Source: Sphingomonadales bacterium
Lineage (GTDB): Bacteria > Pseudomonadota > Alphaproteobacteria > Sphingomonadales > Sphingomonadaceae
NCBI GenBank assembly: GCA_020200315.1
Contig: JAIVIZ010000085.1
Location: 1-33,985, forward strand
DNA: 33,985 nt
Direction: 5' to 3'
Below are positions 1,601-16,224 of this stretch, one piece after another. Within the stretch, counting starts at the first letter, position 1. Each line of letters opens with the position of its first letter. Made by a program: the position numbers and the translations under genes. The notes beneath the pieces were generated by a model. The model did no database searches. It worked only from the letters and a program-made list of their open reading frames with translations, and was not told the origin of the DNA.

Positions 1601-3117
1601 GCGAACACGCCGTGGACATACCAGCTAAGATCGCCGGTGCGCCCGTCCACGCCGTCCCCCTTGCGGAACAGCCAGAAGCGAGCGCCGCTATCATCCTCGA
1701 CCTGAAAATAGTCGCGCACGGCTTCGGTCTCGCCGATGCGCTTCCACCATTCGCCAAAGATGCGTTCCGGCCCATCGGCCTTGCGGATTCGATGCGTCTT
1801 GCCGCGCCATGAGAAGCGAACAGGCGGCTGGTCGGGAAGTCCGGCAATGACTTTGTCGACAGGCTCAGGGCGATGAAGGAGGCGCACTGGACGCGGCCAT
1901 TCACGAGGCCATGCTTCGGTTCGGTTCAACGCCGGGACACGCCGGACGCTGCGCTCGGGAACGTCGCTCTCGACAGCGCTGCAACGAAAGACGTGCGAGG
2001 ATCCAATGCGGCTCGCAATCCGATCGATCAGTGGCGGTAGATCGGCGTCGTGTTCAGCGCCGCCAATCTGCTGTGCCTTCAGGGGTTCGCAGCGGCTGGC
2101 GACAAGGTGCATCGCTTCGATTCCGAATCCCGGTTCGATTGCTTCCACCTTCATGCCGAGCAGGTGCCGCAGATGCCTGCCGTCGCGGGTTGCACCGACC
2201 GTGCCGATCACGAGCTTCTGCTCGTCGCCGTCAATCCGGTCGCAGATCAGGGCCACCTGCCGAACTCCAAGCCCTAACCTTTCCAGCCGCTCCACCAGCA
2301 GGGCGGCAAGATCAGCCAGCACCTGCTCGATAGCCTCGGCTGAACTGATCGGTTCGAGGAAGCGCAGCGTGGCTTGCGGCTGCTCTTGGAGGACGATCGG
2401 CTCGAACGGCTCCTCGCTTCGCCCGAGCGCCTGATCGAGCCGCGTGAGCAGACTTGCTCCGAAGCGACGTGCCAGCGGTCCTCGCGGCATTCCGATCAGC
2501 TCGCCGATGGTCTCGATCCCGAACCGGCGCGCGGAAGCGAGGGCATGGTCGTCTAATCTCAGTGCGGCTGGAGGCAGAGGAGCAATCGCTTCGGCTTCAT
2601 GCCCGTTGGAGCAAAGGCTGATGCTGTCTCGGCCAAAGCGGGCGAGCGCGTGTGCTGCGCCGGTCGTGCCCGCCACTGCGATCCGCGCATCGAAGCCGAG
2701 GTGGGAGCAGAAGCGCAGGATGCGCTGGCACATCCGCCGTTCGCCGCCGAACAGGTGCGATACGCCGCTGAGGTCCAGCCATAGCCCGTCCTCGCCAGAG
2801 AGGGCTGCGCGTGGCGTCCAGCGGCTTGCTGCGAACAATCCAAGACGTTTCAGGAACGCCGCATCAGCCTCCGGCTCAGCGGGGCGGATGTCTAACCCTG
2901 GAACGAGCGCACGCGCTTGGGTGAGCGCCATACCCGGATACAGGCCGAGGGAGCGTGATTGCGAGCAAGCGGCCGCAATCACCACCTGTTGCCCCGATCG
3001 CAAGCTGGTCACCAGTGGAGACGGTTCAGGCTGCGTGGCGGGCCGGAGCTTCCGATCGATCCGCCGCAGCCGATCGATGGAAAGGCTCGGCAGGGTAAGC
3101 GAGGCGACCCGCTTCAT
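1597..3117 (-). CDS. imuB: ImuB, Y-family polymerase-like mutasome hub
   Basis: Catalytically inactive relative of Y-family polymerases that links DnaE2 and ImuA to the beta clamp. The 506-aa protein begins MKRVASLTLPSLSIDRL, the usual ImuB opening, and lacks the acidic metal ligands of active Y-family enzymes near the start. WLDLSGVSHLFGGE sits near residue 125, and the C-terminus has the family pattern of aromatic residues ending in WYVHGVFA. The ATG at 3117 was chosen because GGAGG lies six bases upstream and homologs begin here; the reading frame extends further upstream without a good site. Its 5' end overlaps imuA by 92 nt in another frame, and its stop overlaps the dnaE2 start by 4 nt, so the three genes form one compact operon. 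Confidence 0.93.
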   Translation of the reverse strand: MKRVASLTLPSLSIDRLRRIDRKLRPATQPEPSPLVTSLRSGQQVVIAAACSQSRSLGLYPGMALTQARALVPGLDIRPAEPEADAAFLKRLGLFAASRWTPRAALSGEDGLWLDLSGVSHLFGGERRMCQRILRFCSHLGFDARIAVAGTTGAAHALARFGRDSISLCSNGHEAEAIAPLPPAALRLDDHALASARRFGIETIGELIGMPRGPLARRFGASLLTRLDQALGRSEEPFEPIVLQEQPQATLRFLEPISSAEAIEQVLADLAALLVERLERLGLGVRQVALICDRIDGDEQKLVIGTVGATRDGRHLRHLLGMKVEAIEPGFGIEAMHLVASRCEPLKAQQIGGAEHDADLPPLIDRIASRIGSSHVFRCSAVESDVPERSVRRVPALNRTEAWPREWPRPVRLLHRPEPVDKVIAGLPDQPPVRFSWRGKTHRIRKADGPERIFGEWWKRIGETEAVRDYFQVEDDSGARFWLFRKGDGVDGRTGDLSWYVHGVFA

Positions 3118-3805
3118 CCGTTCCCTCCAGTATCCATTGATGAGGCGGTCCGCCGCGCTGACGCACCAGCTCAATCCTCCAGCGTGATTGCGCAATGCCG
3201 CTTACTGGCAGCGGCTTGGATGGCACGCAGCCGATCCGCCAGCGCGTCACGGCCGATGAAGGTTGAGCGAGCGGGTCTTCACCGCTCCGCCTCCAGCGTT
3301 TCAGCACCAACGCCGTCATGCCGCTGTTTTCGGCGGCTAGCTCAAGGCGCCGCGTCGCCGTCATCGTCATTCGGCCGATCTCACCAATCACGGCGGCAAG
3401 GCTGCCATGCCGCAGCCCTTCTTCCATCACCGCCAGTGCCTCTTCGTCCCTGCGGCACTCGGCGTAGATCAAGCGGTCAGGTCTCAACCCGACCTGCGCG
3501 AGAGCCGGGGCGAACAGATCGCGTCGGGTCAGTGCCCAAAGCACGGTTCCGCTCTCGGCTGCACAACGACTGGCGATCCCGGCCGTGAACAGGGTAGCGG
3601 CGGCATCATCGTTGAGGTTGCCGCTAGTTCCCGTAATCTCATGCAGTGCGCCGCAAGCGAGTCCCGCGCCGCAGAGCCGCTCGTCTATGGCCTCGATGCC
3701 GAATGGCAGGACTTGTGTGCCGGTGATTCGCCCGGCAGCCTGGATAGCTTGCACCTCCGCCAGCAAGGCGTCGAGGCTTAGGGGACTGGACAAAAGGGCT
3801 ATCAC
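3026..3805 (-). CDS. imuA: ImuA, RecA-like mutasome accessory protein
   Basis: RecA/SulA-related protein needed for ImuB-DnaE2 mutagenesis. About 259 aa; recognisable segments are LPFGIEAIDERL followed by GALHEITG near the N-terminus, and RWRIELVRQRGG near the C-terminus, as in alphaproteobacterial ImuA. The frame stays open upstream to a TTG at 3865, but that stretch contains the LexA operator at 3828-3842, so the true start must be downstream of it. GTG 3805 is my choice; TTG 3793 is the alternative, and neither has a strong ribosome site. First gene of the leftward imuA-imuB-dnaE2 operon. Confidence 0.88.
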   Translation of the reverse strand: MIALLSSPLSLDALLAEVQAIQAAGRITGTQVLPFGIEAIDERLCGAGLACGALHEITGTSGNLNDDAAATLFTAGIASRCAAESGTVLWALTRRDLFAPALAQVGLRPDRLIYAECRRDEEALAVMEEGLRHGSLAAVIGEIGRMTMTATRRLELAAENSGMTALVLKRWRRSGEDPLAQPSSAVTRWRIGCVPSKPLPVSGIAQSRWRIELVRQRGGPPHQWILEGTDEAGRLAYPAEPFHRSAAADRSEAPARHAA

Positions 3806-3827
3806 GGCGACTCTGCACGACTCACTT

Positions 3828-3842
3828 GTTCCCTTTATGTTC
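3828..3842. promoter_or_regulatory. LexA (SOS) box, GTTC-N7-GTTC
   Basis: Exact direct repeat GTTC at 3828-3831 and 3839-3842, spaced by seven bases, the consensus LexA site of alphaproteobacteria. It lies between the divergent imuA and the 80-aa gene at 3899, 57 bp from the latter's start and 23 bp from the chosen imuA start. One site could therefore repress both directions. LexA itself is not in the window. Confidence 0.88.
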
Positions 3843-3898
3843 CTGCTCTCAGGAACCAGAGTCAACCGCCCGCATTAAAACACCCAAAGGAGTTCCTC

Positions 3899-4141
3899 GT
3901 GCCGAAAGACGCCACTGAAGACATGCTGGGCGTGATGATCGCCCTTTCCGACCAAGTGCCGGACGCGCCGCTTCAAGGTGTGTGCTGGGTGCTTGCTCAG
4001 CTTGTCGCCGAACACCGGGGTAAGCTCGGCGAAGACCTGGCTAAGAAGCTCCTTGTGACCGGCGCGACCATTTGGAATCACAGCAAAGCATTAGGAGAGG
4101 ACTTCCTAGACATTCAGCACATTACGTCCGGTGAACAGTAG
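3899..4141 (+). CDS. Small protein of unknown function, SOS-linked
   Basis: An 80-aa soluble, probably helical protein with no signal peptide or membrane segment; I do not recognise its family. The GTG start at 3899 is supported by AAAGGAG ending seven bases upstream. It ends four bases before the SRAP gene at 4146, so the two are almost certainly co-transcribed, and the only regulatory site seen upstream is the LexA box shared with imuA. A role in the damage response is inferred from position alone. Confidence 0.7.
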   Translation: MPKDATEDMLGVMIALSDQVPDAPLQGVCWVLAQLVAEHRGKLGEDLAKKLLVTGATIWNHSKALGEDFLDIQHITSGEQ

Positions 4142-4145
4142 CTCC

Positions 4146-4748
4146 ATGTGCAACCTCTACACCATGACGGCGAGCGTGGATGAGCTGCGGCGCGTGTTTG
4201 GCGCGTTTCAGGGCGACACTGCCAACCTGCCGCCGTTCGACGAGATTTATCCGGGCAAGCCAGCGCCAGTGTTGCGTCGCGGCGATAATGGGCAAGGCCT
4301 CAAGCTGGAGATGATGGAGTGGGGCTTTCCTGGACTGGCCGCCGCAAAGAGCCGCCCTGTCACCAACGTCCGCAATCTGGACAGTCCATTTTGGCGAGGC
4401 GCGCTGAACCGCGCCGATCGCCGCTGTCTCGTCCCCGTAACCCGCTTCTGCGAGTGGACCGCCGAAGCTGATCCGCTCACCCGACGAAAGAGCAAGGTCT
4501 GGTTCGGCCTGCATGACGACGCCGATCCGCTGTTCGCCTTTGCAGGTGTGTGGCGACCTGGTCCTGAGCGTCCCTACATGGCGCTTCTGACGTGCGAGCC
4601 GAACTCGATCGTCGGCGCAGTGCATCCTAAGGCGATGCCGGTGATGCTGCGCCGCGAAGACATGGATCGCTGGCTCGATCACGAGCGGGTGAGCGCCTGC
4701 GAATTGGCCCGTGCTTATGACGATGGCGCGATGCGACGGCTGGCCTAG
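4146..4748 (+). CDS. SOS response-associated (SRAP/YedK-type) abasic-site protein
   Basis: SRAP proteins form a thiazolidine crosslink between Cys2 and abasic sites in single-stranded DNA, shielding them from cleavage and mutagenic bypass. The start at 4146 is fixed by the family rule that the mature protein begins with Cys: it reads MCNLYTMT. An upstream in-frame GTG at 4131 would bury this Cys and is rejected. Other active-site residues are present: Asn74 in TNVRN, Glu103 in RFCEW, and His150 in AVHPKAMPVML. At 200 aa it is of family length. It lies four bases after the 80-aa gene, opposite imuA-imuB-dnaE2 across the LexA box. A second, divergent SRAP is at 14606-15187. Confidence 0.93.
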   Translation: MCNLYTMTASVDELRRVFGAFQGDTANLPPFDEIYPGKPAPVLRRGDNGQGLKLEMMEWGFPGLAAAKSRPVTNVRNLDSPFWRGALNRADRRCLVPVTRFCEWTAEADPLTRRKSKVWFGLHDDADPLFAFAGVWRPGPERPYMALLTCEPNSIVGAVHPKAMPVMLRREDMDRWLDHERVSACELARAYDDGAMRRLA

Positions 4749-4810
4749 CCGAAGCCTTTACGGCGGCGGTCACTAAGCGCAGAACCGATCCTCTCAACTA
4801 GGGAGAATGT

Positions 4811-4975
4811 ATGCACAAGATTCTGTCTGCTGCGGTCGCCTTGGCGGTTCTTTCCACCCCGGCGCTCGGCTCGCCCTGCCGGGACGGTAAAGGCAAGTTC
4901 GTGAAGTGCACCAAGGTCGTGAAGAAGGTGGTACGCTGCCGTGACGCCAAGGGACTTTTCATCAAGTGCAAATAG
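4811..4975 (+). CDS. Small secreted Cys-rich protein with internal repeat
   Basis: A 54-aa protein with a signal peptide (MHKILSAAVALAVLSTPALG, cleavage likely near residue 20) and a mature part of two near-identical units, CRDGKGKFVKC and CRDAKGLFIKC, joined by a lysine/valine-rich linker. Four Cys could form two disulfides in the periplasm. GGGAG lies five bases before ATG 4811. I recognise this as a type common in sphingomonads but know no function. The next gene, 23 bp downstream, is also a secreted repeat protein, so they probably form a transcription unit. Confidence 0.8.
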   Translation: MHKILSAAVALAVLSTPALGSPCRDGKGKFVKCTKVVKKVVRCRDAKGLFIKCK

Positions 4976-4998
4976 GGCAACCGATCGGGAGAGTATCG

Positions 4999-5577
4999 AT
5001 GAAGAAGCTGCTCATTGTCGCTGGTCTTGTCCTTGGACTGGCATCGCTGTCGGGACAGGCAAACGCACGCAACTACGATTGCTCGAAAGCGGGAAATGCC
5101 AATAAGGCTGCCTGCAAGGCACCCGGCGTGACGCACGTCGCTGCTACAAAAGCCACCAAGGTGACCAAGGCGACGACGACCGTAGCCAAGACACGGAATT
5201 ACGATTGCACCAAGGCCGGAAACGCCAACAAGGCAGCTTGCAAAACCACCGCCGCACAGACGGCACCTGCTGAGGCGGGTCGGAAGGGTACGCAAACGAC
5301 CAAGGCCGCTAACTACGACTGCACCAAGTTCTACAATCGCCTGCGAGCAGTGTGCCGCACGCAGGGTGCGACGACGAACGCCAGCACCTCGACAGTGGCA
5401 CCGGGATCGGCCCCAATGACTAGGCCGGCCACATCTCATCAAACGACGACTACGACACGGTCGGCCAACAACGATGCGGCGGGCGCCACAGCTCAATGCA
5501 AGGATGGCACCTATAGCCACGCCCAACACCGCACTGGCGCTTGCTCGCGCCACCGTGGCGTCGCGAAGTGGCTTTAG
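4999..5577 (+). CDS. Secreted repeat protein with C-terminal DUF3761-like domain
   Basis: 192 aa. A signal peptide covers residues 1-23. Three Cys-containing units follow: residues 24-40 and 66-82 are almost identical (NYDCxKAGNANKAACK), and 104-120 is a diverged copy (NYDCTKFYNRLRAVCR). They are separated by Thr/Ala/Lys-rich linkers of low complexity. The last ~29 residues (CKDGTYSHAQHRTGACS, then GVAKWL) match the DUF3761 pattern. The start ATG 4999 follows CGGGAGAG. Function is unknown; the features suggest a periplasmic or extracellular disulfide-containing protein. Co-transcribed with the 54-aa gene upstream. Confidence 0.82.
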   Translation: MKKLLIVAGLVLGLASLSGQANARNYDCSKAGNANKAACKAPGVTHVAATKATKVTKATTTVAKTRNYDCTKAGNANKAACKTTAAQTAPAEAGRKGTQTTKAANYDCTKFYNRLRAVCRTQGATTNASTSTVAPGSAPMTRPATSHQTTTTTRSANNDAAGATAQCKDGTYSHAQHRTGACSRHRGVAKWL

Positions 5578-5588
5578 AGATTTGACTT

Positions 5589-5611
5589 GCGGGCGTGGTC
5601 ATAAAGCCCGC
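5589..5611 (+). terminator. Hairpin after the secreted-protein pair
   Basis: GCGGGC at 5589-5594 pairs with GCCCGC at 5606-5611 across an 11-base loop, 12 bp after the stop of the DUF3761 gene. There is no T-run after it, so it is only a possible terminator. Confidence 0.4.
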
Positions 5612-5708
5612 GCCTGCTTGTCAATACGCCGGCGCTAAGGCCGCTTGATCTGCCGCTTTCCTACAGCCAGTTGCTTTTCGTAAGGAAGGCTCGCCTCGGT
5701 AGAACGAA

Positions 5709-5744
5709 GGGGGTCGTGTGCGGTTGTGCCAACCCGCGACCCCC
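5709..5744. terminator. Long hairpin downstream of the RadC-like gene
   Basis: GGGGGTCG (5709-5716) pairs with CGACCCCC (5737-5744), with an inner stem CGGTTG/CAACC(C)G around a TGC loop. It sits eight bases beyond the stop of the leftward RadC-like gene, the expected place for its terminator, and also after the rightward secreted-protein genes. No clear T-run on either side. Confidence 0.5.
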
Positions 5745-5751
5745 GGATCGT

Positions 5752-6498
5752 TCACTCTCTCTCGGCCCTGGGCGCACCTTCGGGTCGGCAATCGGTCCAG
5801 GGCTCATCATTGAGTACGCCGCCTCGGCGCGAACTCCACGTCCGGCCTTGCGCAATGATGAAGTGATCGATCAGGGGCATGTCCAGATCGTCCGACACAC
5901 GAAAAAGCCGATCCGTTAACCGGCGATCATCGGCGCTCGGCTCAGGATTCCCGGAAGGATGATTGTGTACCAGAATGTAGCCGGCCGCACCGATCGCCAT
6001 CCCGTTGCGAACCACGTTTGAAATGTTGACGGCTACGTGGCCTGGTGACCCTTCTCCCAGCTCGACAATCTTCAACAGCCGAGTTTCATGATCGACATAG
6101 ATTGCGATAAGTCGCTCGAACTCGAAGAACCCGATCTCCATGCGAAGGTATCTAAGCAGCCCCTCGACGCCGCCCAGCAGCGGACGCTCCGCCACGCGCT
6201 CCGCCAAGGCAACGCGCATGATGTCACGCGACGATAAGATTGCCCTCGCCAGCTCCCAAGGGACCGTTCGGCAAATCCGCCAGGTCGAACCACCAAGCAC
6301 GGCCGATATTGAACCGAATTCCTCGAGTAGCGCTCTCGACCAGCCTTCTGGATCGCCAGCGCCAAGCGTGTGAAGAAAGTTTGTGAGGATTTGAACGTCG
6401 GTGATTTGGGTCTGCGGAAGGGTCCAATGAGGCTCCTCCACGCTCGCACGGCTGACCGCGTCCTGACATTCGTCTTCGATTACGAAGGACCTCGCCAC
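5752..6498 (-). CDS. RadC-like JAB/JAMM-domain protein
   Basis: 248 aa with the RadC-type JAMM metalloprotease motif HNHPSGNPEPSADD: His178, His180, Ser188 and Asp191 fit HxH-x7-SxxD. Glu147 or Glu149 in VELGEG may be the upstream acidic residue. The N-terminal ~100 residues show LTNFLHTLGAGDPEGWSRAL, resembling the helical UPF0758/RadC lead-in. Despite the name, RadC-family proteins have no established repair role; copies are frequent on ICEs, plasmids and prophages, which fits this island. The GTG start at 6498 has GAGGG seven bases upstream. Transcribed divergently from the phage-type module. Confidence 0.88.
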   Translation of the reverse strand: MARSFVIEDECQDAVSRASVEEPHWTLPQTQITDVQILTNFLHTLGAGDPEGWSRALLEEFGSISAVLGGSTWRICRTVPWELARAILSSRDIMRVALAERVAERPLLGGVEGLLRYLRMEIGFFEFERLIAIYVDHETRLLKIVELGEGSPGHVAVNISNVVRNGMAIGAAGYILVHNHPSGNPEPSADDRRLTDRLFRVSDDLDMPLIDHFIIAQGRTWSSRRGGVLNDEPWTDCRPEGAPRAERE

Positions 6499-6638
6499 GG
6501 GCAGCCCTCACGGGTGCTCGGCGATTCGGCGTTGTCAGATTGCAGCCATTTTGGATGAGGTCAACGAGCTGCGGTTAACCCATAGACAAGTTAGAGGGGC
6601 GGCAACAGGTTCGAGTTCACAGGGTGTCGGCCCATGGA

Positions 6639-6667
6639 TTGACTTTTTGCGAACTTTGTGCTACACG
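6639..6667 (+). promoter_or_regulatory. Promoter-like sequence before the phage-type module
   Basis: TTGACT (6639-6644), a 17-base spacer, then TACACG (6662-6667). The -35 box is near consensus and the -10 weaker, as usual in GC-rich alphaproteobacteria. Transcription would start near 6674, just ahead of two hairpins and the gene at 6746. Confidence 0.55.
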
Positions 6668-6676
6668 AAAAGCATT

Positions 6677-6727
6677 GGCGGAGGTCCGCCTGATTGAGCT
6701 GGATGCGTCGCCGCGTCCGGCTTTTTT
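6677..6727 (+). terminator. Two-hairpin leader ending in an intrinsic terminator
   Basis: First hairpin: GGCGG (6677-6681), loop AGGT, CCGCC (6686-6690). Second hairpin: GGATGCG (6701-6707), loop TCGC, CGCGTCC (6712-6718, one G-U pair), followed two bases later by TTTTTT at 6722-6727. With the promoter at 6639 this would give an RNA of about 55 nt ending 19 bp before the first gene of the module. It may be an attenuator, an antitermination site or a small RNA. Confidence 0.6.
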
Positions 6728-6745
6728 ATTGTCCGGGGGCGGTCG

Positions 6746-7225
6746 ATGATTCCTGATGACGAGCTTGCCTTGATGCCGCTTGCCGCTGCCGGCAATCACG
6801 AGGCCAGCGTCATGCTCCGCGACGGACTGCTGCTCGGTGCCCAGGCTGCCGATCTGCCAATGGTGCGGTTCGATGCACTGTCCAAGGCGGAGGTCTTCGC
6901 CCGCCTCGCGGCCGAGCAAGGCGATGCCGGCGACAAAGTGACGCTTGCCGCACTGCTCCTGCTGCAATCGTCAATCTACCGGGAGGAAGGTTTGGACGAA
7001 GTGGCCCTTGCCTATGCCAGGCACGCTGACGAGCTGTTCGTTGCGATCATGCAGGCTGACGACTGTGAAGGCCGGGCCATGCTTTTGGGAGCCGTGTCCG
7101 GGCTGGCCGATAGTGGTGACGATCTCGCCGCACTGATGCTCGACAACCTTGTTGCCGCGATGCCGGCTGAGTTCGTTGCCGCGACAACTGCTGCGATTCG
7201 CAAAGCCGAGGTGGCGCATGGCTAA
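6746..7225 (+). CDS. Unknown helical protein, paralog A of a tandem pair
   Basis: 159 aa, predicted helical and soluble, with no known motif. A central block (SKAEVFARLAAEQGDAGD) and the C-terminal end (AATTAAIRKAEVAHG) align with the next gene's EVFARLAAEHGEPND block and its ATAIRNHVKSG end, so the two are diverged duplicates. It is first in the rightward phage-type module and overlaps the next gene by 8 nt. The repeated short helices resemble TPR/Sel1-type solenoids, but no clear repeat consensus is visible. In this position a small virion or ejectosome component, or a regulator of the module, is possible; that is inference only. Confidence 0.72.
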   Translation: MIPDDELALMPLAAAGNHEASVMLRDGLLLGAQAADLPMVRFDALSKAEVFARLAAEQGDAGDKVTLAALLLLQSSIYREEGLDEVALAYARHADELFVAIMQADDCEGRAMLLGAVSGLADSGDDLAALMLDNLVAAMPAEFVAATTAAIRKAEVAHG

Positions 7226-7751
7226 GTCCTTCCTGCCGCCCGCCATGCGCCCCGAACCTTCCTATGCCGAGATGGTCCGCTCGATCGAGCGGGACGGGGG
7301 GCTTGATGATTATTCGGCAACACTGGTGCGGGACGCCGCCAAGGGTGTCCGCGCCGCTCAGTCGGAAGCGACCTGTTACGCCCTGCTGCTGGCCGAACGT
7401 CCCGACCATGAGCTGGAAGCGCTCACCGGCGCTGAAGTCTTCGCTAGGCTCGCCGCGGAACATGGCGAGCCCAACGATCTGCTTCGCCTCGCTGCCGTGC
7501 TGATGAAGCGCGCCGGCGGGCTGCGGGACACGGAGATAGACCGGGCACGCGGGTTTGCCGTGGAAGCCTTCTGCCTCCTTGAGCGGCTGTGGGAAGCCGA
7601 GCAGACCGATGTGGTGCTCGATGCTGCAGCGTGTTTGTGCGCCAGTGACGAGGACAGTGACGCCATCCTGTTCGATGCGGCGATTGCCGGGCTCAAGCCC
7701 GCGACCGCGACCGCAATCCGCAATCATGTGAAGTCTGGAGGAAAGAAGTGA
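7218..7751 (+). CDS. Unknown helical protein, paralog B of a tandem pair
   Basis: 177 aa from ATG 7218, which overlaps the previous stop by 8 nt; its own TGA overlaps the next GTG by 4 nt, so translation is probably coupled along the module. The N-terminus has a ~35-residue extension (MAKSFLPPAMRPEPSYAEMV) absent from paralog A, followed by the shared EVFARLAAEHGEPNDLLRLA block and a shared C-terminal helix. No membrane segment, signal or catalytic motif is seen, and I do not recognise the family. It lies directly before the two large phage-type proteins. Confidence 0.74.
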   Translation: MAKSFLPPAMRPEPSYAEMVRSIERDGGLDDYSATLVRDAAKGVRAAQSEATCYALLLAERPDHELEALTGAEVFARLAAEHGEPNDLLRLAAVLMKRAGGLRDTEIDRARGFAVEAFCLLERLWEAEQTDVVLDAAACLCASDEDSDAILFDAAIAGLKPATATAIRNHVKSGGKK

Positions 7752-8929
7752 GCTTGTTCTTGAACGGGAGCGATATGCCCTACAACGGCAATCCAGCCAT
7801 GCAACAGATGCTGCTGATGTCGGCGCTGCGGGGCCAGAACAGCGGGATGATCCCGGGCCAAAACGGCGGCCAGAACAGCGGCATGATGCCGCTTGGGCGT
7901 CCGCAGACGGTTACAAGCGAGCCGGTGCCAGTCGCGCCGACGAACGGGCCGATCAAGGGTGCCGATCCGGCTGACTTTGGGAAGCCGGGCAACCTGCCTC
8001 CCGTGAGTGCGCAGCAGCTGTCGGCTGCCACGGCGACAATCGGCAATGGCCCTCGCTCTACCCCTCCCGGTCAGCAACCGGTCATGGCGGATGGATCGCA
8101 GCCGCTGATGGACTTCAACACTGCGGCCAGCCATCAACTCTATGATAATCCGCAGGGCCTGACGGCGAACATGCCGGGCATCGCCGCGCATCGCAATGGG
8201 ATCGACTGGAAGCGACTTGCGGGGATCATCGGTCCCGCGTTGATGGCAGCCGGTGGCCACCCTGAACTTGGGATGCAGTTCATCGAGAACCAGCAGAAGA
8301 TGCGCAACGAAGAGGCTCAGCGCCAGTTCGATCTATCGAAGCTCTCCCTGCAGCAGAGCCTTCCTCGCGAAGTCGGGCATGCACTGATCCAGAAGGGCAG
8401 TGACGGGCAGTATCACGAACTCTACTCGGACCCTGAGCCGTTCGAGTCCTACGCGCAGGCGCAGGGGTTGAAGCCTGGAACCCCTGAATATGCCGCCGCA
8501 GTGAAGAGCTATCGTCTCGGGGGATGGTCCGATGATGCGGTCGCCAACCGCGAAGGCTACGCCGGCGTGCGCTTCGGTTATCAAGGGCAACTGCAGGACG
8601 CTCGCCTTCGCTCTGGTGAGCGCAACACGGACGTTCGCGCTAACGCATCGATCAACAACAACATCCGCACGACCGGCGTTTCTGCAGCGAACAATGCGCG
8701 CACGGTGGGCGCGACGACGCGCGGGCAGGACTTGCGCAATGCAACCGTTCAGCGCGGGCAGACGATGCTCGACAATCGGGTGCGGGGTAGCGCCGCCTAT
8801 CAGGGGCATGGCGGTCACGCTGGCTTCGGTGGCGGTGCGTCTGCGGTGGCGGTCGGGCCCAATGGTCACAGAATCGTCGTTCAGAACGGTCGCTGGGTCG
8901 ATGCACAGACTGGTCAACCGGTCCAGTAA
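7748..8929 (+). CDS. Phage virion-type protein, 393 aa
   Basis: GTG start at 7748 overlapping the preceding TGA. The N-terminal ~130 residues are low-complexity and rich in Gly, Gln, Asn, Pro and Met, with a duplicated GQNSGM(I/M)P element. A hydrophobic patch follows (LAGIIGPALMAAGGHPELGM), then a charged helical stretch (NQQKMRNEEAQRQFDLSKL). The C-terminal third is Arg/Asn/Gly-rich and ends in GPNGHRIVVQNGRWVDAQTG, a small beta motif seen in phage structural proteins. No enzyme motif is present. Its place just before a giant peptidoglycan-hydrolase protein recalls internal virion (ejectosome) proteins of podophages, but sequence alone does not prove this. Confidence 0.75.
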   Translation: MSLFLNGSDMPYNGNPAMQQMLLMSALRGQNSGMIPGQNGGQNSGMMPLGRPQTVTSEPVPVAPTNGPIKGADPADFGKPGNLPPVSAQQLSAATATIGNGPRSTPPGQQPVMADGSQPLMDFNTAASHQLYDNPQGLTANMPGIAAHRNGIDWKRLAGIIGPALMAAGGHPELGMQFIENQQKMRNEEAQRQFDLSKLSLQQSLPREVGHALIQKGSDGQYHELYSDPEPFESYAQAQGLKPGTPEYAAAVKSYRLGGWSDDAVANREGYAGVRFGYQGQLQDARLRSGERNTDVRANASINNNIRTTGVSAANNARTVGATTRGQDLRNATVQRGQTMLDNRVRGSAAYQGHGGHAGFGGGASAVAVGPNGHRIVVQNGRWVDAQTGQPVQ

Positions 8930-8973
8930 ACCGCTCAACTCACGTCGTGATGACGTCTGAAATTGGATACTGA

Positions 8974-11900
8974 ATGCCTGACCCTTCGTTGCCACCGCTG
9001 CCGCCCGGCTATTCGCTGGCGGGACCGCCTCCTGCGCCCACGCCTGATCCGAACCTGCTCAAGCCGCTGTTCGATGCTGGCGTGGTGCCGACCAACGGCT
9101 ATCGCACGCCTGCCGACATTCAGCGGCTGCGCGAACAAGGCTACCATCCCGCCCCGAACTCACTGCACCTCAACGGTGACGCGGTTGACCTCACCCCTGG
9201 CAACTCCGGGATGCGGCTGAGCGATGTTCAAGCTCGGGCACAGGCAATCGCCTCTGGCTGGCACGGGGGCAAGGTGCTCAATGAAGGCGATCATATCCAC
9301 CTCCAGCTGCCCGGCTGGGGCATGGCACCCGGCACGCCGGGCACGCCAAACTCTGGTTTGCCGCCAATGCCTCAAGGCTATCAGCTCACGCAGCGCGGCT
9401 CGCTCGCGGGCGGCAACTTCGTTCCTTCGTCGGCCACCCCGACCGGCAAGGCCCATGACGGCGACACGTTCCAACTCTCGAACGGTCAGAATGCCCGCTT
9501 GTTCGGCGTCGACGCGTGGGAGCTGAACCAGCAAGGTCGCAGGCCTGACGGGTCGCTCGTTCCGCTCGGCGTCAACGCTCGCAACGATCTGCAGTCCAAT
9601 GTCTCGTCATCTACTCCAGTGTTCCTCAATGGCCAGTCCACCTATGGCCGCCCGGTCGCCGCGCTGGGCGATGGAGGTCCTGACGATCCCGCGTGGAAGC
9701 TGGTGCGCAAGGGCGATGCGCTGGCGGAGCCGCAGTATCTGCAAGGCGATCCGCGTTTCGGTCCCTACATGGAAGCCGAGCGTCTGGCGCGGTTGAACCG
9801 GCTCGGCGGCCAAGGCACCAATGCCGAGACGCCCGCGCAATTCCGCCATGGCGACGGCCCGTGGCAGGGTGCGACGCCGGGCACCTACGGCAACGGCACG
9901 GCGATCTTCGGTGACGAGGCCACCCCAAATTACGGCCTGCGCGATGACGTCGCCAAAGCTTATGCTGAGTTCGCTCACGATCCCAAGCATGGCGCTGCTG
10001 ACCTGATCGCGTTCGGGCAGTCGAACGGCTTCACGGTGCCAAAGGATGCGGCGAACAAGTTCGTTGCCGCTCGGGCAAAGGCGGGAGGCAGCTCTGACGC
10101 GCCGGAATATATCCAGCCACCGCGCCCCTCGATCGATCCCGGCGATGGGAAGTTCGGCACTACCGCGCGCGGGTTCGGCGATCCGTTCAACATGCTCGAC
10201 GAAGTCGGCGGAGTTGTGGACACGCTGGGCGGCACTGGCGGGCGTGAGAACCTGTTCAACAGCGACCGGCGCTTCGGCGACATCCTCTGGAACAATATCG
10301 ACCAGAACCGGGCGATCATCGCTCACGACGAAGATACGCACCCTTACTACCGCATTGGCGGACAGCTTACCGGTGGTCTGTTCGTGCCCGTGGCCGGCGA
10401 GGCGAGGACGGTCGGACAGCTCGCGCGGATCGGCGCGGTTGAGGGTGGCCTTGCCGGCTTCGGCGCTGGTGAAGGTGGCGTGGTCGATCGCCTGCCTGGT
10501 GCGCTCGGTGGAACCGTCCTGGGTGCTGCTGGCGGCTATGCGCTAGGCCGTATCGGTCAAGGTGTCGCTAGCGGCTGGCGTGCTCTGCGCGGCCTTCCTG
10601 CTGCTGGCGAGGATGCGACCCGCGAGGCGAGCGCCGTTGTGAGTGAAGGCATGCCGAATGCCGAGTCGCGCTTTCAGGCCGATGGCACCGGCTCGACCGA
10701 CGTTCCCGCCCCGCCGCCCGGCTATCAACTCGATGGTGCCTCGTCGGCCGCGATGGCCAGCGATCACGCGCCTGCCGTCCTGCACGGTCCTGTTCTGCGC
10801 CGCCCGGACATCATCGACGTGTCGCAGTTGCCGCCGGTGCCTGAGGGCTACAAACTCGATGCTCCGTTCGGATCAACCCGCCCGATGGGTGAGCGGCTGA
10901 GTGCGGAAGAGATTGCGAAACTGGGTGAAGGAGTCGATCCGGCCTCCGTGCTTCCGCGTCCGGCCAATCAGGTGGATACGCTAGACGAAGCGATGAAGGC
11001 CAATCCCGGCCCGTTCCGCGACGTGCAAGCGCCGGACGAGTTCGCGGCTTTGGACGTTCGCCGGCCGAATGGCGGGGCCTATGTTCGTGGCCCGCTCGAC
11101 ACGACGCAAGCGCTTCGCACCATGGGTGGGGTTCGCGACGAAGGTGGCGACCTCGCCCACCTCGGCATTGATAACAGCCCGCGCCGGATGGACTTCGGCT
11201 CCAACGAACAGTTCCTCGGTCGCTTGGTCAACAATGATGGCGGCATGGGCATGGACGAGGCGGCTCACGCGCTGTGGGAGCGAGGTTACTTCCCGCAGTT
11301 TCAGGAGCGCCCCACGCCTGCCGATCTGATCGACCGGCTGCATACCGAAAGCACCGGAGCGCACCGCTACTTCCACCCGGACGATTATGGGGAAGTCGCT
11401 CGGTTCCACGACGCACAAGCGCAGCGTGGTGCTGTCGAACGAGCACAGCACGAAGGATCGTCGCTGACGGAGGACATTGGGCAGCACATCACGCTCGATG
11501 ATCTGGAAGCGAACCGGGCTCCGGCCTCGGCTTATGACGATACGCCGCGCATCCTTGGCGGCAAGCTCGGCAACATCAACCTCGACAAGCTGGAGAGTCC
11601 GCAGGACGTGGCCCAGCTGATCGACCATGTGCAAAAGCGGGTCGGCGGGTTCGACGCTGCGAGCCGCGGGCGCGTCACCAACGACGAAACCCGCAAGCTG
11701 GCGGATGAGCTCGGACTTGCTCCTGAGGCGCTGCTGAAGCGCAATCAGGGACAGGCGCTCAATGCCGAGCAGCTCTACGCCACACGCTCCCTGGTTCAGA
11801 AGTCGCGCGAGTTGGTCGGCAAGCTGGCGAAGAACGCTGTCGGCGGCTCGGACGAGGACGTGCTCGCCTTCCGCAAGGCGTGGGTCCGTCATGTCGCTCT

Positions 11901-13836
11901 GGAGGAGCATGTCACCGGAGCGACGGCTGAGGCTGGTCGGGCGCTTCAGCAGTTCCGAATGATCGCCAAGGGGAGCGATGCTCGCGGCGCTGCGGTCAAG
12001 GCGTACCTCAAGGGCGCTGGTGGGCGGGAGACCATCGAACAGGCTGCGCAGAAGATCGTCGACCTCATGGAGGATCCTGCTCAGGCGAATCACTTCATGT
12101 CCCAAGCGCTCAAACCCAAGTGGCGCGACAAGCTCAACGAGCTGTGGATCAACTCACTACTGAGCGGTCCCAAGACGCACGTGGTCAACTTCGTCGGCAA
12201 CGCCATGACCTCGATCTACTCGCTGCCGGAACAGGCGCTGACGGCCGGCATTGGCAAGCTCACCGGCTCGGCTGACCGCTCCTATCTCGGAGAGGTCGGC
12301 GCGCGGGTGTCCGGCCTCGCCAACGCTTCGGTCGAAGGGCTTGCCCGCGCCAAGAAGGCGTTCGTCACCGGCGAGGCAGCCGACGATGTGACGAAGGTCG
12401 AGAGTCGGGTTCACGACGCGATCGGTGGGACGCTCGGCAAGGTGGTTCGTCTGCCCACTCGTGCCCTGACTGCGGCGGATGAGTTCTGGAAGTCGATCAA
12501 TGCCAGTGCGGAGCTGCACGCCTTGGCCTATAGAAAAGCGGTCAGGGAGGGCGTCGATGCGGCGGATCGCAAGGCCCAGTACGAAAGTCTGGTCAAGGCA
12601 CCCACCGGCGACATGGCGCAGCAGGCCGAAGACGCCGCTCGATATTACACGTTCCAGCAGGAGCTTGGACCCGCTGGCAAGGCGATCCAGAACCTGTCGA
12701 GCCGAGTGCCCGGCCTCAAGGTCATTATCCCGTTCGTCCGCACGCCTGCCAATATCGTCAAGTTCGCAGGCGAGCGGTCGGTGTTCGGTATCGCGATGCC
12801 TGAGGTTCGCGCTGCGCTGGCTGCTGGCGGTCGTTCTCGGGATGAAGCGCTAGCCAGGATCACGCTCGGCTCGGGCCTGTCCACGGCGGCGGTCCTGGCC
12901 GCCATGCACGGGCGCCTGAGTGGCAGCGGGCCGTCGGACCCTCGGGAACGTGCTTCGCTCCAGCAAGGCGGCTGGCAGCCCTACAGCGTCCGTGTCGGCG
13001 ATCGGTGGGTGTCCTACCAGCGCTTCGATCCGCTGTCGCTGTTGGCGGGTGTGGCTGCCGACTTCGTGGAAGCCGGACACAATGCCAAGCCGCAGGAAGC
13101 CGACAAGCTGGCGATCCACCTGACGCTGGGCGTCGCGAAGAACCTGACGAGCAAGACGTGGCTCTCGGGCGCTGCCGACTTCTTCCAGATGCTCGACGAT
13201 CCCGACCGCTATGGCGATCGCTACTTCCGCAACCTCGCTGCAACGGCGGCGGTGCCGTCGATCTTGAATCAGACAGCTCAGGCGATCGATCCCAACTTGC
13301 GCGACGCCCGGACGCTCATGGATGCGATCAAGGCTCGCACGCCGTACCTGTCGCGGGACGTTGCCCCTCGCCGGGATATGTGGGGCCAGCCCAAGACGCG
13401 GGGCGACTCGTTTGGTCCTGACCTGATCTCGCCGGTTGCCGGCTCCTATATCAGCAATGATCCGGTGCGGGCGGAGGTGGGCCGGCTGCGGGCTCCGGTC
13501 TCGATGCCGCAACGTGACGTAACGGTGGGCGGGGAACGCGTGCCGCTCAATCCCAGGCAGTTCGACGAATATCAGAGCCTCGCCGGCGTTGCCGCGTCAC
13601 AGGCGCTGCATCAGGCCATGCGCTCGCCGCAGTGGCAGAGCATGACAGACACTGAACGCAATGAAACGATCAAAGCGACCTTCAGCGATGCTCGCAGGCA
13701 AGCGCGTGGGCAGCTGCTGCAGGACTTCCCCGACATTGCGCAGGGTGCGTTCGCGATGCGGCAGGGGCAAGTGCCTGCGGCTCCGACAGGGTTGCCACCG
13801 CTTCCGCCGGGATACGTGGTACAACCACGCCATTAG
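8974..13836 (+). CDS. Giant phage-type polyvalent protein: M15-type peptidase motifs, SNase-like nuclease, ejection-protein-like body
   Basis: 1620 aa. Residues ~25-115 carry the complete M15 peptidase signature SxHxxGxAxD (Ser63, His65, Gly68, Ala70, Asp72) and ExxHxH (Glu104, His107, His109), pointing to a Zn-dependent cell-wall peptidase. Residues ~155-275 resemble staphylococcal nuclease: DGDT (162-165), Arg175, Asp180, Glu183 and YGR (224-226) match catalytic positions. A Gly/Ala-rich hydrophobic stretch (~462-535) could interact with membrane. Residues ~640-1600 are largely helical, with INSLLSGPKTHVVNFVGNAM near 1060, typical of large phage internal or polyvalent proteins. A PPxPxGY element occurs at 6-15, 129-138, 579-588, 619-629 and 1607-1616. 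Probable role: delivered with phage DNA to cut peptidoglycan and process DNA. No head genes adjoin it, so it may be a remnant or a repurposed module. Confidence 0.85.
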   Translation: MPDPSLPPLPPGYSLAGPPPAPTPDPNLLKPLFDAGVVPTNGYRTPADIQRLREQGYHPAPNSLHLNGDAVDLTPGNSGMRLSDVQARAQAIASGWHGGKVLNEGDHIHLQLPGWGMAPGTPGTPNSGLPPMPQGYQLTQRGSLAGGNFVPSSATPTGKAHDGDTFQLSNGQNARLFGVDAWELNQQGRRPDGSLVPLGVNARNDLQSNVSSSTPVFLNGQSTYGRPVAALGDGGPDDPAWKLVRKGDALAEPQYLQGDPRFGPYMEAERLARLNRLGGQGTNAETPAQFRHGDGPWQGATPGTYGNGTAIFGDEATPNYGLRDDVAKAYAEFAHDPKHGAADLIAFGQSNGFTVPKDAANKFVAARAKAGGSSDAPEYIQPPRPSIDPGDGKFGTTARGFGDPFNMLDEVGGVVDTLGGTGGRENLFNSDRRFGDILWNNIDQNRAIIAHDEDTHPYYRIGGQLTGGLFVPVAGEARTVGQLARIGAVEGGLAGFGAGEGGVVDRLPGALGGTVLGAAGGYALGRIGQGVASGWRALRGLPAAGEDATREASAVVSEGMPNAESRFQADGTGSTDVPAPPPGYQLDGASSAAMASDHAPAVLHGPVLRRPDIIDVSQLPPVPEGYKLDAPFGSTRPMGERLSAEEIAKLGEGVDPASVLPRPANQVDTLDEAMKANPGPFRDVQAPDEFAALDVRRPNGGAYVRGPLDTTQALRTMGGVRDEGGDLAHLGIDNSPRRMDFGSNEQFLGRLVNNDGGMGMDEAAHALWERGYFPQFQERPTPADLIDRLHTESTGAHRYFHPDDYGEVARFHDAQAQRGAVERAQHEGSSLTEDIGQHITLDDLEANRAPASAYDDTPRILGGKLGNINLDKLESPQDVAQLIDHVQKRVGGFDAASRGRVTNDETRKLADELGLAPEALLKRNQGQALNAEQLYATRSLVQKSRELVGKLAKNAVGGSDEDVLAFRKAWVRHVALEEHVTGATAEAGRALQQFRMIAKGSDARGAAVKAYLKGAGGRETIEQAAQKIVDLMEDPAQANHFMSQALKPKWRDKLNELWINSLLSGPKTHVVNFVGNAMTSIYSLPEQALTAGIGKLTGSADRSYLGEVGARVSGLANASVEGLARAKKAFVTGEAADDVTKVESRVHDAIGGTLGKVVRLPTRALTAADEFWKSINASAELHALAYRKAVREGVDAADRKAQYESLVKAPTGDMAQQAEDAARYYTFQQELGPAGKAIQNLSSRVPGLKVIIPFVRTPANIVKFAGERSVFGIAMPEVRAALAAGGRSRDEALARITLGSGLSTAAVLAAMHGRLSGSGPSDPRERASLQQGGWQPYSVRVGDRWVSYQRFDPLSLLAGVAADFVEAGHNAKPQEADKLAIHLTLGVAKNLTSKTWLSGAADFFQMLDDPDRYGDRYFRNLAATAAVPSILNQTAQAIDPNLRDARTLMDAIKARTPYLSRDVAPRRDMWGQPKTRGDSFGPDLISPVAGSYISNDPVRAEVGRLRAPVSMPQRDVTVGGERVPLNPRQFDEYQSLAGVAASQALHQAMRSPQWQSMTDTERNETIKATFSDARRQARGQLLQDFPDIAQGAFAMRQGQVPAAPTGLPPLPPGYVVQPRH

Positions 13837-13894
13837 CTCCAAGCTCAAGAGCCGCGAATTGTCTGTTTTGGGTGGAAAGCGGACACCCTAAGCC

Positions 13895-14311
13895 TCATAG
13901 ACCGCGAGCGTTTCCGCGCACAACGGTCGCGGTCAGTTCCACGACACCGTCCTTCCGGCGATAGCTTATCTGATCGCCCTGTCGCAGGAGTTGAACGCAC
14001 CCGCTTGAAGCCGGGTCACCCGAGTCTAGGCAAAACAGGTTGTCGTATCTGCGGAAGTGCCACTTCAGGGTATATCGTTTTCCCTTATCGTCGCCGCCGC
14101 GCAGCATTCCGTCACGACCTACAAATTGAAACCTCGTCGCTCCCGGCGCTCCCCAGGAGAGTGTGTTGCCGACGACAACCCGCTGGATTTGCGCAACGGT
14201 CAACTGGGTACCAAGCTTCGCATCGACGATCAGCGGTTCGCGCGACTGCGCTTGTGAAGGCGCGACGGCGGCAAGCAGCAAAGCGACAGAAAGGCGTAGG
14301 TTGCCGGACAT
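13895..14311 (-). CDS. Secreted protein of unknown function
   Basis: 138 aa with a signal peptide (SVALLLAAVAPSQAQS, cleavage near residue 22). The mature part begins LGTQLTVAQIQRVVVGNTL, and LTxxQIxxxVxGNTL openings are found in small exported lipocalin-like or DUF995-like proteins; I cannot place it firmly. Two Cys (in FCLDSG and SGCVQLL) may form a disulfide. A strong AGGAGG lies seven bases before ATG 14311. It faces the giant phage-type gene tail to tail, 58 bp away, and is probably not part of that module. Confidence 0.75.
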   Translation of the reverse strand: MSGNLRLSVALLLAAVAPSQAQSREPLIVDAKLGTQLTVAQIQRVVVGNTLSWGAPGATRFQFVGRDGMLRGGDDKGKRYTLKWHFRRYDNLFCLDSGDPASSGCVQLLRQGDQISYRRKDGVVELTATVVRGNARGL

Positions 14312-14445
14312 GTATGTTCCTCCTGCGATGTCGTTCGTCCTGCAGTGGCGTTCGGTTACATTGCCTGTACGATTGGATTAACTCAGACCGACCCGTCTTT
14401 CGAAAGCGGGGCGAAGGCTTCATTGTCCCTAACGTCCCCGACGTC

Positions 14446-14530
14446 GGCACGGCCTGCTCGTGATCGGACGTAACTGACCTAACGGCGCTAATGGCGAGCC
14501 CAGCTTTCGCAGCTTTCGCAACTTTCGCAA
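14446..14530. repeat. Direct repeat copy A (54 bp near-identical core plus 9-bp array)
   Basis: Positions 14446-14499 match 15909-15962 at 53 of 54 bases (only 14470 differs). One base later each copy continues into three 9-bp units, here CAGCTTTCG, CAGCTTTCG, CAACTTTCG. Copies A and B lie in the same orientation 1463 bp apart and bracket the second SRAP gene and two small genes. The rest of 14312-14605 holds no gene I can support; 14428-14445 carries two CCTAACGTC-type 9-bp units. Confidence 0.85.
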
Positions 14531-14551
14531 CGGGGCGAGTGCGAGCGAAGG

Positions 14552-14595
14552 GCTATTGTCCCTGAAGAGCTATTGTCCCTAACGTCCCTATCGTC
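14552..14595. repeat. Array of CCTAACGTC-type 9-bp units
   Basis: Imperfect tandem units such as CTATTGTC, CCTAACGTC and CCTATCGTC, with one irregular unit (CCTGAAGAG). Related pairs occur at 14428-14445 and 15232-15249. All lie in the non-coding gaps around the second SRAP gene, here immediately after its stop. Confidence 0.65.
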
Positions 14596-14605
14596 CCGGC
14601 GTTCT

Positions 14606-15187
14606 CTAGCGAACCTGCTCCACGTGAAGGGTGCCGCACGGCAGAGCGGTAAGGAGTTCGGCTTCAGGCTTCGACAGGTCAAGCCAGCTTCGCCAATCCT
14701 CCGGCCGCAATACCGCCATTTGTCGATTGTGAATTGGCGCGACGTCCGGTCCCGGCGCAGTCGTCAACAAGGTGAATGCCTCGCCTTTCTCGGGGCTGCC
14801 CGGACTCCATAGCCCCGCAAAGCAAAACCACGGCTCGCCCACGAGCGTGAACTTGAACTTCGCTTTGGGAGCTTTCTCGCCCTTAAACTCAAAGAAGTGT
14901 GAGGCCGGCACGAGGCACCGCCGGCTGTTGGCGAAGGAGCGCCCCTCCGACTTGAAGTTGATGACGGCGCGGCCCTTCGGATTGGAAGGCTCAAACCCCC
15001 ATCGAAGCTGAGCCAGCTCTACGCCTTCATCGTAGCGGCGGAAGACGGGGGCGATCTCCGACGGCCAGATGTCGTCGCGGGGCTCCAGGTTAGGCGGCGC
15101 GACTGGCGCGAGGATCGGCATTCGCAACTGCCGCAGCGCCTCGGCATAGTCAGCATAGGCGACGTGATTGCCGAAGTCGTTGCACAT
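14606..15187 (-). CDS. Second SRAP/YedK-type abasic-site protein
   Basis: 193 aa beginning MCNDFGNH, so Cys2 is available after Met removal. The other active-site residues are present: Asn77 in VINFKSEG, Glu100 in HFFEF, and His153 in PIHNRQMAVL. It has only family-level similarity to the SRAP at 4146, so the two are distinct paralogs rather than a recent copy. Expected role: covalent protection of abasic sites in single-stranded DNA. No GTTC-N7-GTTC box is seen before its start, so SOS control is not evident. It is flanked by 9-bp repeat arrays and lies between the two copies of the 54-bp direct repeat. Confidence 0.92.
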   Translation of the reverse strand: MCNDFGNHVAYADYAEALRQLRMPILAPVAPPNLEPRDDIWPSEIAPVFRRYDEGVELAQLRWGFEPSNPKGRAVINFKSEGRSFANSRRCLVPASHFFEFKGEKAPKAKFKFTLVGEPWFCFAGLWSPGSPEKGEAFTLLTTAPGPDVAPIHNRQMAVLRPEDWRSWLDLSKPEAELLTALPCGTLHVEQVR

Positions 15188-15347
15188 GCCCGACGAACCA
15201 ACGACGGGTCGCGGGGTTCAACGAAGCCCTACCTATGGTCCCTAACGTCCTCGGGCGCACGGTGCTGGCCTCGTTCGACCCTTTGCACCTTTTCCGGGTG
15301 TAGGCTGGGCAGGTGTAAGGGGTGGCCTCATCCATTATATCGAGGGG

Positions 15348-15509
15348 ATGCTAAGCCTTCCGTGTCTGTTCGGCGTTCATCGTCCGCTGGTTGCCTCGAT
15401 CATTCAGCGCAAACATGGCTTCACGGCTCTTTGTGACCGGTGCGAGTTGCCGATTGAACGGGACCAAGGGGGCCGCTGGACGACTTCCGAGCCACTGGCG
15501 CGAACCTAA
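15348..15509 (+). CDS. Small protein with one CxxC pair
   Basis: A 53-aa frame starting at ATG 15348. The segment HRPLVASIIQRKHGFTALCD followed by RCELPIERDQGG is protein-like, with CDRC giving a possible zinc or redox pair, and resembles small sphingomonad proteins I recall without a name. GAGGGG lies directly against the ATG, too close for an ideal ribosome site. The antisense reading over the same bases is low-complexity and Arg-rich. Whether it is expressed is uncertain. Confidence 0.45.
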   Translation: MLSLPCLFGVHRPLVASIIQRKHGFTALCDRCELPIERDQGGRWTTSEPLART

Positions 15510-15551
15510 CCCGCGCCACGGTCTCGGTCTCAATGCTGCCGGCGCGGGCGC

Positions 15552-15587
15552 TGACTTTCGCAACTTTCGCAACGTGCGCAACGCGCC
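15552..15587. repeat. 9-bp tandem array, CAACTTTCG type
   Basis: Units TGACTTTCG, CAACTTTCG, CAACGTGCG and CAACGCGCC, the same family as the array at 14501-14527. It ends 10 bp before the stop of the leftward gene at 15598. Confidence 0.65.
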
Positions 15588-15597
15588 GAACAATCGA

Positions 15598-15867
15598 CTA
15601 AGCGGCTAACGCATCCCCAATCAGCGCAGCACGCGCGACGTTCATCGCCCGATCTCTGTGCACCTCTGTTCCTCGGAAGGCTTCTCGCCAGACCTTGTTC
15701 TTCATCCCTTCCAGCTCGTGCCAGTGGGGCGGCCTGTCTTGGGCAATGCACGCCACCAGCGCCTTCGGGAACATTCCCTCCACGTCCTCACTCCATGTTT
15801 GTATTCTGAAGCGCTGACGAAGGACCATGCCGTCCAGACCGCTCGTGCCTGCCAGCGCTCTAGTCAT
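15598..15867 (-). CDS. Small hypothetical protein
   Basis: 89 aa from ATG 15867. The middle reads naturally (FRIQTWSEDVEGMFPKALVA, then PPHWHELEGMKNKVWREAF), with several Trp and His, no signal peptide and no membrane segment. I do not recognise a family. There is no clear ribosome site, and a later Met (residue 14) is an alternative start. It lies between a 9-bp array and direct repeat copy B, in a gene-poor part of the island, and could be a decayed remnant. Confidence 0.45.
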   Translation of the reverse strand: MTRALAGTSGLDGMVLRQRFRIQTWSEDVEGMFPKALVACIAQDRPPHWHELEGMKNKVWREAFRGTEVHRDRAMNVARAALIGDALAA

Positions 15868-15908
15868 TGGGCCGTTAATGGTTCCTTAGCGGCGGCGGCG
15901 GCGAGCGG

Positions 15909-15993
15909 GGCACGGCCTGCTCGTGATCGGACCTAACTGACCTAACGGCGCTAATGGCGAGCTGCGCTTTAGCAGGTTTCGCAACCTTAGCAG
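15909..15993. repeat. Direct repeat copy B
   Basis: 15909-15962 matches copy A with one mismatch (15933). It is followed one base later by diverged 9-bp units GCGCTTTAG, CAGGTTTCG and CAACCTTAG, in the same phase as copy A. The rest of 15868-16147, up to the tRNA-Asp 3' end, shows no gene. Confidence 0.85.
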
Positions 15994-16147
15994 GGCGGAG
16001 GAGCAACGGAGTCGAACGGAACGCGGTTTGATTCACGCCTTCGGAGTGCCGTCGGCGAGTTTCGATTTGGTGCTTAACTCGTGCTTATCTCAGCCGACAA
16101 CCAACCGAGCGCGAAAGCGGTGATCTGGCCTAAACCACTGAAAAGAA

Positions 16148-16224
<77 letters not shown>

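Follow-up and report, generated by a model that had tools for sequence, protein, structure and literature searches.

A phage ejection protein with peptidase-like and nuclease-like modules in sphingomonad integrative elements without recognisable capsid genes

The window and its ejection cassette

The window analysed here is a stretch of 33,985 nucleotides of sphingomonad DNA, which is the entire contig C181 of a 2.18-Mb assembly in 202 contigs (87% complete, 4% contamination). On its forward strand an open reading frame with an ATG start (8974–13836) encodes a protein of 1620 amino acids, P0001, which is called F0 when the gene and its relatives are meant. An earlier note, made from the letters of this DNA, had described the frame as a fusion of M15-type peptidase motifs, a nuclease domain and a phage internal-protein body, lying next to unrecognised partners. 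The frame is open and all of the motifs quoted there are present at the residues given. One of the partners, however, occupies the second ejection protein slot. This is F1 (7748–8929, +; 393 aa), which belongs to a cluster found at 16 loci and was placed in this slot, the gp15 position, by position only; it has no PHROG match. Two further cassette genes have no assigned function, one of 177 aa (7218–7751, +) with no Pfam or PHROG match and one of 159 aa (6746–7225, +) with no Pfam match. By eye, the 159-aa gene is like the gene ahead of F1 in genome G221.

A tRNA-Asp gene is present at 16148–16224 (−). The tRNA-Asp comes after the same gene, presumably a permease, in 9/9 relatives fetched, one of these being a 605-bp stretch. 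Long stretches were available for eight relatives; within about 20 kb these have no match to any window protein left of the tRNA, and a different gene near the tRNA-Asp is common to seven of the eight. Because the tRNA-Asp of the relatives is without those window proteins, positions 1–16147 look like an island inserted at this tRNA, the left end of which is beyond the contig. No second tRNA-Asp 3' end was found in the assembly itself.

Other genes in the island are a SRAP-family gene (4146–4748, +; Pfam 2e-25), a RadC/JAB-family gene (5752–6498, −; Pfam 1.6e-26) and a second SRAP-family gene (14606–15187, −; Pfam 1.2e-26). The two SRAP genes flank the ejection cassette on both sides. A SRAP gene is also located within the G351 element described below, and a clustered SRAP relative is near the G317 copy of F0. 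Positions 2–3865 of the island contain an SOS-mutagenesis-like set of genes, which we take to be dnaE2, imuB and imuA; in the relatives fetched, the set was not found next to this tRNA.

The large protein and its modules

The sequence places P0001 among the ejection proteins of the internal-virion-protein-D (T7 gp16) type and shows an M15-like and an SNase-like module at its N-terminal end. Towards the C-terminus there is a match to PHROG 6651, 'internal virion protein' (3.3e-50), with the best stretch at residues 1156–1456. A tblastn search with P0001 identified 85 phage records, of which 0/85 span 80% of the protein. The best 30 of the 85 cover parts of residues 821–1600 at 22.6–31.3% identity, and their annotation is mostly internal virion protein (D) or hypothetical. 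The PHROG match and the phage records bear out the internal-protein body proposed in the earlier note, and a gp16-like body is placed here at residues 861–1600 (11554–13773, +). In Desulfovibrio phage ProddE the matching gene comes after those annotated as internal virion proteins B and C. The C-terminal body is homologous to that of T7 gp16 (internal virion protein D), and F0 is likewise the last ejection gene, after B and C. T7 gp16 carries a lytic transglycosylase, whereas F0 has the M15 and SNase modules and sits in elements without recognisable capsid genes. Prophages G230 and G247 also encode large proteins with the Gly/Ala-rich module of about residues 340–548 (9991–10617, +) that the earlier note described. 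A Pfam scan of P0001 gave no match to any polyvalent-protein family, and PADLOC returned no match for the protein.

The M15-like peptidase domain is at residues 25–118 (9046–9327, +) and contains NSLHLNGDAVD from residue 62 (S63, H65, G68, A70 and D72) and EGDHIH at 104–109. The SNase-like nuclease domain, at residues 157–294 (9442–9855, +), contains DGDT at 162–165, R175, D180, E183 and YGR at 224–226. We take the H-D-HxH residues to be the M15 zinc-site pattern, with the roles of ligands, and the D, R, D, E, R set to be the catalytic residues by staphylococcal-nuclease numbering. Conservation was scored in an alignment of 19 relatives. H65, D72, H107 and H109 are kept in 9/9 aligned rows with the N-terminal M15 region, and H-D-HxH is at the C-terminus in two further rows (G377 and G407), giving 11/11 M15 copies. 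D162, D164, R175, D180, E183 and R226 are kept in 15/15 aligned rows with the SNase region. E104 is not universal (7/9 N-terminal M15 rows; N in L006 and L007). Since the relatives have the motifs at equivalent places, their presence in P0001 is more than chance.

The profile searches that the earlier note proposed gave a divided result. The domains of P0001 itself are below the curated Pfam cut-offs, with 20.6 bits for M15_3 (cut-off 23.2) and 14.6 bits for SNase (PF00565; cut-off 21), but the M15 part of the relative in G388 (31.1 bits, 2.8e-7) and the SNase part of that in G351 (21.6 versus 21 bits) are above them. Residues 158–255 match PHROG 18798 (1.8e-5), which has no assigned function. 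Within residues 144–294, P0001 is matched by two stand-alone SNases, L012 at 55.3 bits (1e-14) and L032 at 31.6 bits (2.4e-7). Searched as a profile against the PDB, the N-terminal alignment had no match at E 10, and AlphaFold2 models from six-sequence input were poor (mean pLDDT 42.6 for residues 1–322 and 39.4 for the SNase region alone). Stand-alone SNase-type genes of other sphingomonads (L012 1465–2181, L013 1339–2133, L014 1453–2142 and L032 1411–1929) match the SNase region of P0001 and start, by eye, with a signal-like sequence. Such genes are a possible source of the SNase module in P0001.

The relatives of P0001 differ in the modules they have. Of the two domains, those in G175 and G388 have M15 alone, six copies (G369, G317, G132, G336, L004 and G351) have SNase without a detected M15, and those in G059 and G139 have neither. 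The M15 module is found at either end, and SNase or M15 is missing in some copies; therefore the modules are exchangeable. The fusion is not confined to the window, since the complete-phage contigs L006 and L007 have an M15-SNase fusion too. With the catalytic residues conserved in a protein of the ejection type, it is plausible that P0001 acts on the cell wall and on nucleic acid after delivery.

The motif PPxPxG[YF]xL, here called the joint motif, is present five times in P0001, all on the forward strand: ahead of the M15 domain (residue 7; 8992–9018), at the M15/SNase junction (residue 130; 9361–9387), twice ahead of the gp16-like body (residue 578; 10705–10731, and residue 620; 10831–10857) and at the C-terminal end (residue 1608; 13795–13821). 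The mean was 0.10 copies in 200 shuffles, a control that is post hoc because the pattern was written after the repeats were seen. Five copies are also present in the relatives from C57 and G407. In some other F0 relatives the repeats are DPWAEF-like or WWDQD-like; G175, G351 and G388 are among several that lack both these and the joint motif. Our guess is that the joint motif is a docking or loading signal.

Integrative elements that carry the cassette

The assembly contains a second copy of F0, on contig C57, with 84% identity to P0001. It is within a 21-kb island with 19-bp direct repeats at 12288 and 33638, and a tyrosine-integrase gene, part of which reads as unknown residues, is just inside the repeat. 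Measured as the distance between the flanking genes, presumably rplT and aceA, the interval is 21.7 kb in C57 versus 1.8–4.4 kb in 9/9 relatives with both genes on one contig (26 searched). F0 is under selection: between the window and C57 copies the Nei-Gojobori dN/dS is 0.149 over 1611 codons, with per-domain values of 0.118 for M15, 0.245 for SNase and 0.127 for the body, and against G221 it is 0.25. In the C57 element there seems to be metabolic cargo in the form of a TonB-receptor-like gene (L009 6124–8184) and an amidohydrolase-like gene (L008 13419–14789), which we take to be a TonB receptor and an amidohydrolase.

P0001 matches somewhere in 39 of 396 genomes of the order. In 14 of those genomes there is a long match to the gp16-like body with no internal stop. 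Nine elements of 17.5–30 kb (C57, G018, G221, G369, which is the same contig as L005 from Sphingomonadales bacterium EhC05, G377, G407, G351, G336 and G175) are bounded by exact repeats of 18–49 bp and carry an integrase and the ejection cassette. A repeat copy is in or abutting a tRNA gene in seven of the nine. An integrase-cluster gene is present in 9/9 (Pfam was run on G377, G221, G018 and G336), HTH_17 was found in 3/3 small regulators tested, and seven elements have recognised primase or helicase genes; these regulators and the primase or helicase genes are read here as serving excision and replication. The att search defined no repeats for 5/14 capsid-less loci, namely the window, L003, L004 (Sphingobium chungbukense DJ77), G317 and G132.

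Most of the sphingomonad F0 copies seen are in integrated elements without a recognisable capsid, portal or terminase. PHROG scans covered 108/114 called element proteins of at least 100 aa outside clusters F0, F1 and F3; the other six were read as an amidohydrolase, a TonB receptor, a serine recombinase, a primase-polymerase homologue and two integrases. Among the PHROG matches listed for these 108/114 larger element proteins there is no portal, major capsid or terminase. For the 81 element proteins of at most 275 aa the matches listed represent 25 of 51 families, so a structural match among the smaller proteins could be hidden. Those listed include one to 'head maturation protease', and its most probable source is the Clp-protease gene of G351 (172 aa). 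The same library detects portal, major head, terminase and head closure in prophage G388, and portal and major head in phage L006. The gene set of a complete podophage (portal, major capsid and terminase) was found in G388 and, among the matches listed, in none of the nine bounded elements. No capsid-sizing or packaging gene was recognised in the elements, the genes of which come from a simple in-house caller that misses some small genes.

The smallest element, G377, is 17.5 kb. Its called proteins of at least 200 aa are an integrase, a primase-polymerase, the product of a 240-aa gene common to phages, F7, F1 and F0. F7 matches PHROG 598, 'DNA ejection' (4e-21 in G377 and 8e-39 in G018), and among the element loci it was clustered in three only (L004, G018 and G377). 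The order F7-F1-F0 is present in these three and in phages L006, L007 and G388; that of the window is F1-F0, with no recognised F7. PADLOC, run on ten proteins, identified the candidate defence models PDC-M02B in G336 (1.6e-143) and HEC-09 in G351 (3.2e-43).

Beside the cassette, proteins of 743 aa (L063 685–2916, G351) and 448 aa (L047 61–1407, G221) resemble, on inspection, tail fibres or repetitive surface proteins; neither has a Pfam match. The elements may bring adsorption parts too. The loci of G059 and G139 (L018 8995–16826 and L066/L067) have a resolvase, a protein of 416–446 aa and an F0 relative of 1081–1136 aa, with a Bro-N gene in G059, and may represent a second, smaller kind of element. 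Some candidates were set aside. In G518, G604 and G694, found at the level of the class, F0 is amid genes that by eye are the tail and terminase genes of full prophages, and the match in G587 is to the SNase end only.

On a tree of the gp16-like body, the window, C57, L003 and G221 group with support of 100/100, and G351, G377 and G407 form another group. When six outside phages are added, G175 joins the outside phages and MW202801 is placed among the elements, both weakly. Without the outside phages, one split (90/87) parts the 14 element copies from L006/G388. A tree in which the elements are held as one clade fits slightly worse and is not rejected (p-AU 0.07). This fits one or few origins of the capsid-less state, followed by divergence under selection.

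Satellites, remnants and other readings of the elements

The simplest account of these elements is that they are phage satellites, because a selected ejection cassette sits in integrative elements without capsid genes. We consider it somewhat probable that a helper podophage provides their capsid, tail and packaging, and that the delivery proteins are their own. Such an element integrates by means of its tyrosine integrase, often at tRNA genes, as the repeats indicate. When a podophage infects the cell, the element would be excised and replicated, and helper procapsids would package it. Its F0 and F1, and in some elements F7, would enter the virion core, either replacing the ejection proteins of the helper or beside them. 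After adsorption the ejection proteins would exit before the DNA, the M15 domain opening the wall and a conduit being formed, while the nuclease would act in the periplasm or the cytoplasm.

The cassette also occurs in complete relatives, namely L006 and L007 from IMG/VR, the second of which ends inside F0, and prophage G388. An initial comparison with T7 only was widened, since portal, major head and head-closure proteins of the related complete phages belong to phrog_156, phrog_334 and phrog_578, respectively. Five IMG/VR queries returned only L006 and L007, both with phage structural genes. IMG/VR thus gives no evidence of element packaging, which counts against the satellite reading. So does the absence of the G388 capsid and portal from the other 11 genomes searched. 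The small number of element loci with a recognised F7, an F1 that matches no family, the families beyond those listed for the small proteins, the weak placements of G175 and MW202801, the five loci for which no repeats were defined and the state of the assembly weigh against it as well. The L006-type capsid was found in 7/396 genomes, and only G388 among these has the long body match. G303 and G281 contain prophages in which the F7 slot is filled and the large protein is another one. These capsid and portal searches thus reveal no helper in the genomes, and there may be a lytic helper or none at all.

Are the elements instead conserved remnants of podoprophages that have lost their head, packaging and tail genes? 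This is the main alternative, and we regard it as rather unlikely. The ejection genes would have been kept by chance, through recombination with phages or for use by the host. They are the final block of late genes in the related phages, which agrees with such a loss, as does the lack of a visible helper. In G368 there is only a fragment of the body, in a 92-aa frame, which looks like a decayed copy and speaks for remnants and against satellites. However, nine elements retain repeats, integrase and intact F0/F1, the dN/dS of F0 is 0.15, and the same capsid-less cassette is present in several genera and groups on trees. Another reading is a role in defence or interference, where the ejection proteins of the element would poison podophage assembly or, through the nuclease, kill the infected cell. 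Candidate defence genes in two elements and the intact nuclease motif set are in its favour. It is nonetheless improbable, as P0001 has no PADLOC match, selection on the entire gp16-like body exceeds what interference needs and the same protein is present in complete phages.

Or, are the elements small complete phages with head and packaging genes that go unrecognised? In favour of this are the many called proteins for which PHROG gives no function, and the matches listed for the small proteins, which represent part of the families. Yet the unassigned proteins of G377 are at most 171 aa, save for that of the 240-aa gene common to phages, and the scan of the larger proteins gave neither a terminase nor a portal, which makes this quite improbable. 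That only the delivery part has been retained might also suggest that no virion is involved, and that the ejection proteins form an envelope conduit for uptake or transfer of the element's own DNA. We know of no precedent for capsid-independent delivery by ejection proteins, and nothing was recognised in the elements for secretion or for assembly outside a virion; of the alternatives, this is the least probable.

Known satellites seize control of capsid size or of packaging, or come with a head of their own and use a tail that they do not encode. Capsid-forming PICIs likewise supply part of the virion themselves, but in their case it is the head and packaging genes, and in the elements described here it is the delivery part. 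The polyvalent proteins that phages and conjugative elements encode are very large, have shuffled enzyme domains and are delivered to the recipient; P0001 differs from them in its gp16-type body. Like the P4-like satellites, PICIs and PICMIs, as presented in the available text of PMC10803314, the elements have an integrase with att sites, a small HTH regulator near the integrase, a primase or helicase and defence cargo, and no full virion gene set. Unlike these, they carry a conserved cassette for large ejection proteins, and no capsid-size or packaging gene was recognised in them. Capsid-forming PICIs are named in that text. The AH14b satellite of Pseudomonas ANT_H14 is 16.8 kb with an integrase, an AlpA-like regulator and a primase, and a tail-assembly-type gene is common to this satellite and its helper (PMC4936722, main text). 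The terms 'ejection' and 'internal virion' are absent from that main text. A satellite with ejection proteins was not recognised in the literature searched, which included the available text of PMC4936722, PMC11773190, PMC10386132, PMC12324425 and PMC10803314 and was mostly outside the subscription journals. Among the papers listed by the same searches, none has 'internal virion protein' and 'staphylococcal nuclease' together.

Taken further, the elements would be a mobile-element lineage whose way of life is to substitute just the genome-delivery machine of the helper virion, 'ejectosome pirates'. Their ejection proteins would consist of exchangeable modules (M15 at one end or the other, SNase, the Gly/Ala-rich module and the gp16 body) between copies of the joint motif, or of DPWAEF/WWDQD in others. 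This we put forward tentatively, as possible but less probable than not. The element, not the helper, would then set how the wall is breached, and the nuclease would be directed against the nucleic acid of the host or of competitors. From the earlier note, an ejection-type protein with M15-like and SNase-like modules has been upheld, while the oddity lies outside the protein, in the capsid-less elements that carry it.

If the satellite reading is true, elements that bring only entry proteins represent a further way to parasitise the virion. The share of the ejection proteins in host range, apart from that of the tail fibres, would become testable. Additionally, a nuclease inside an ejected protein raises two questions. 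How is the packaged genome spared? And, what is the target that is cut on entry?
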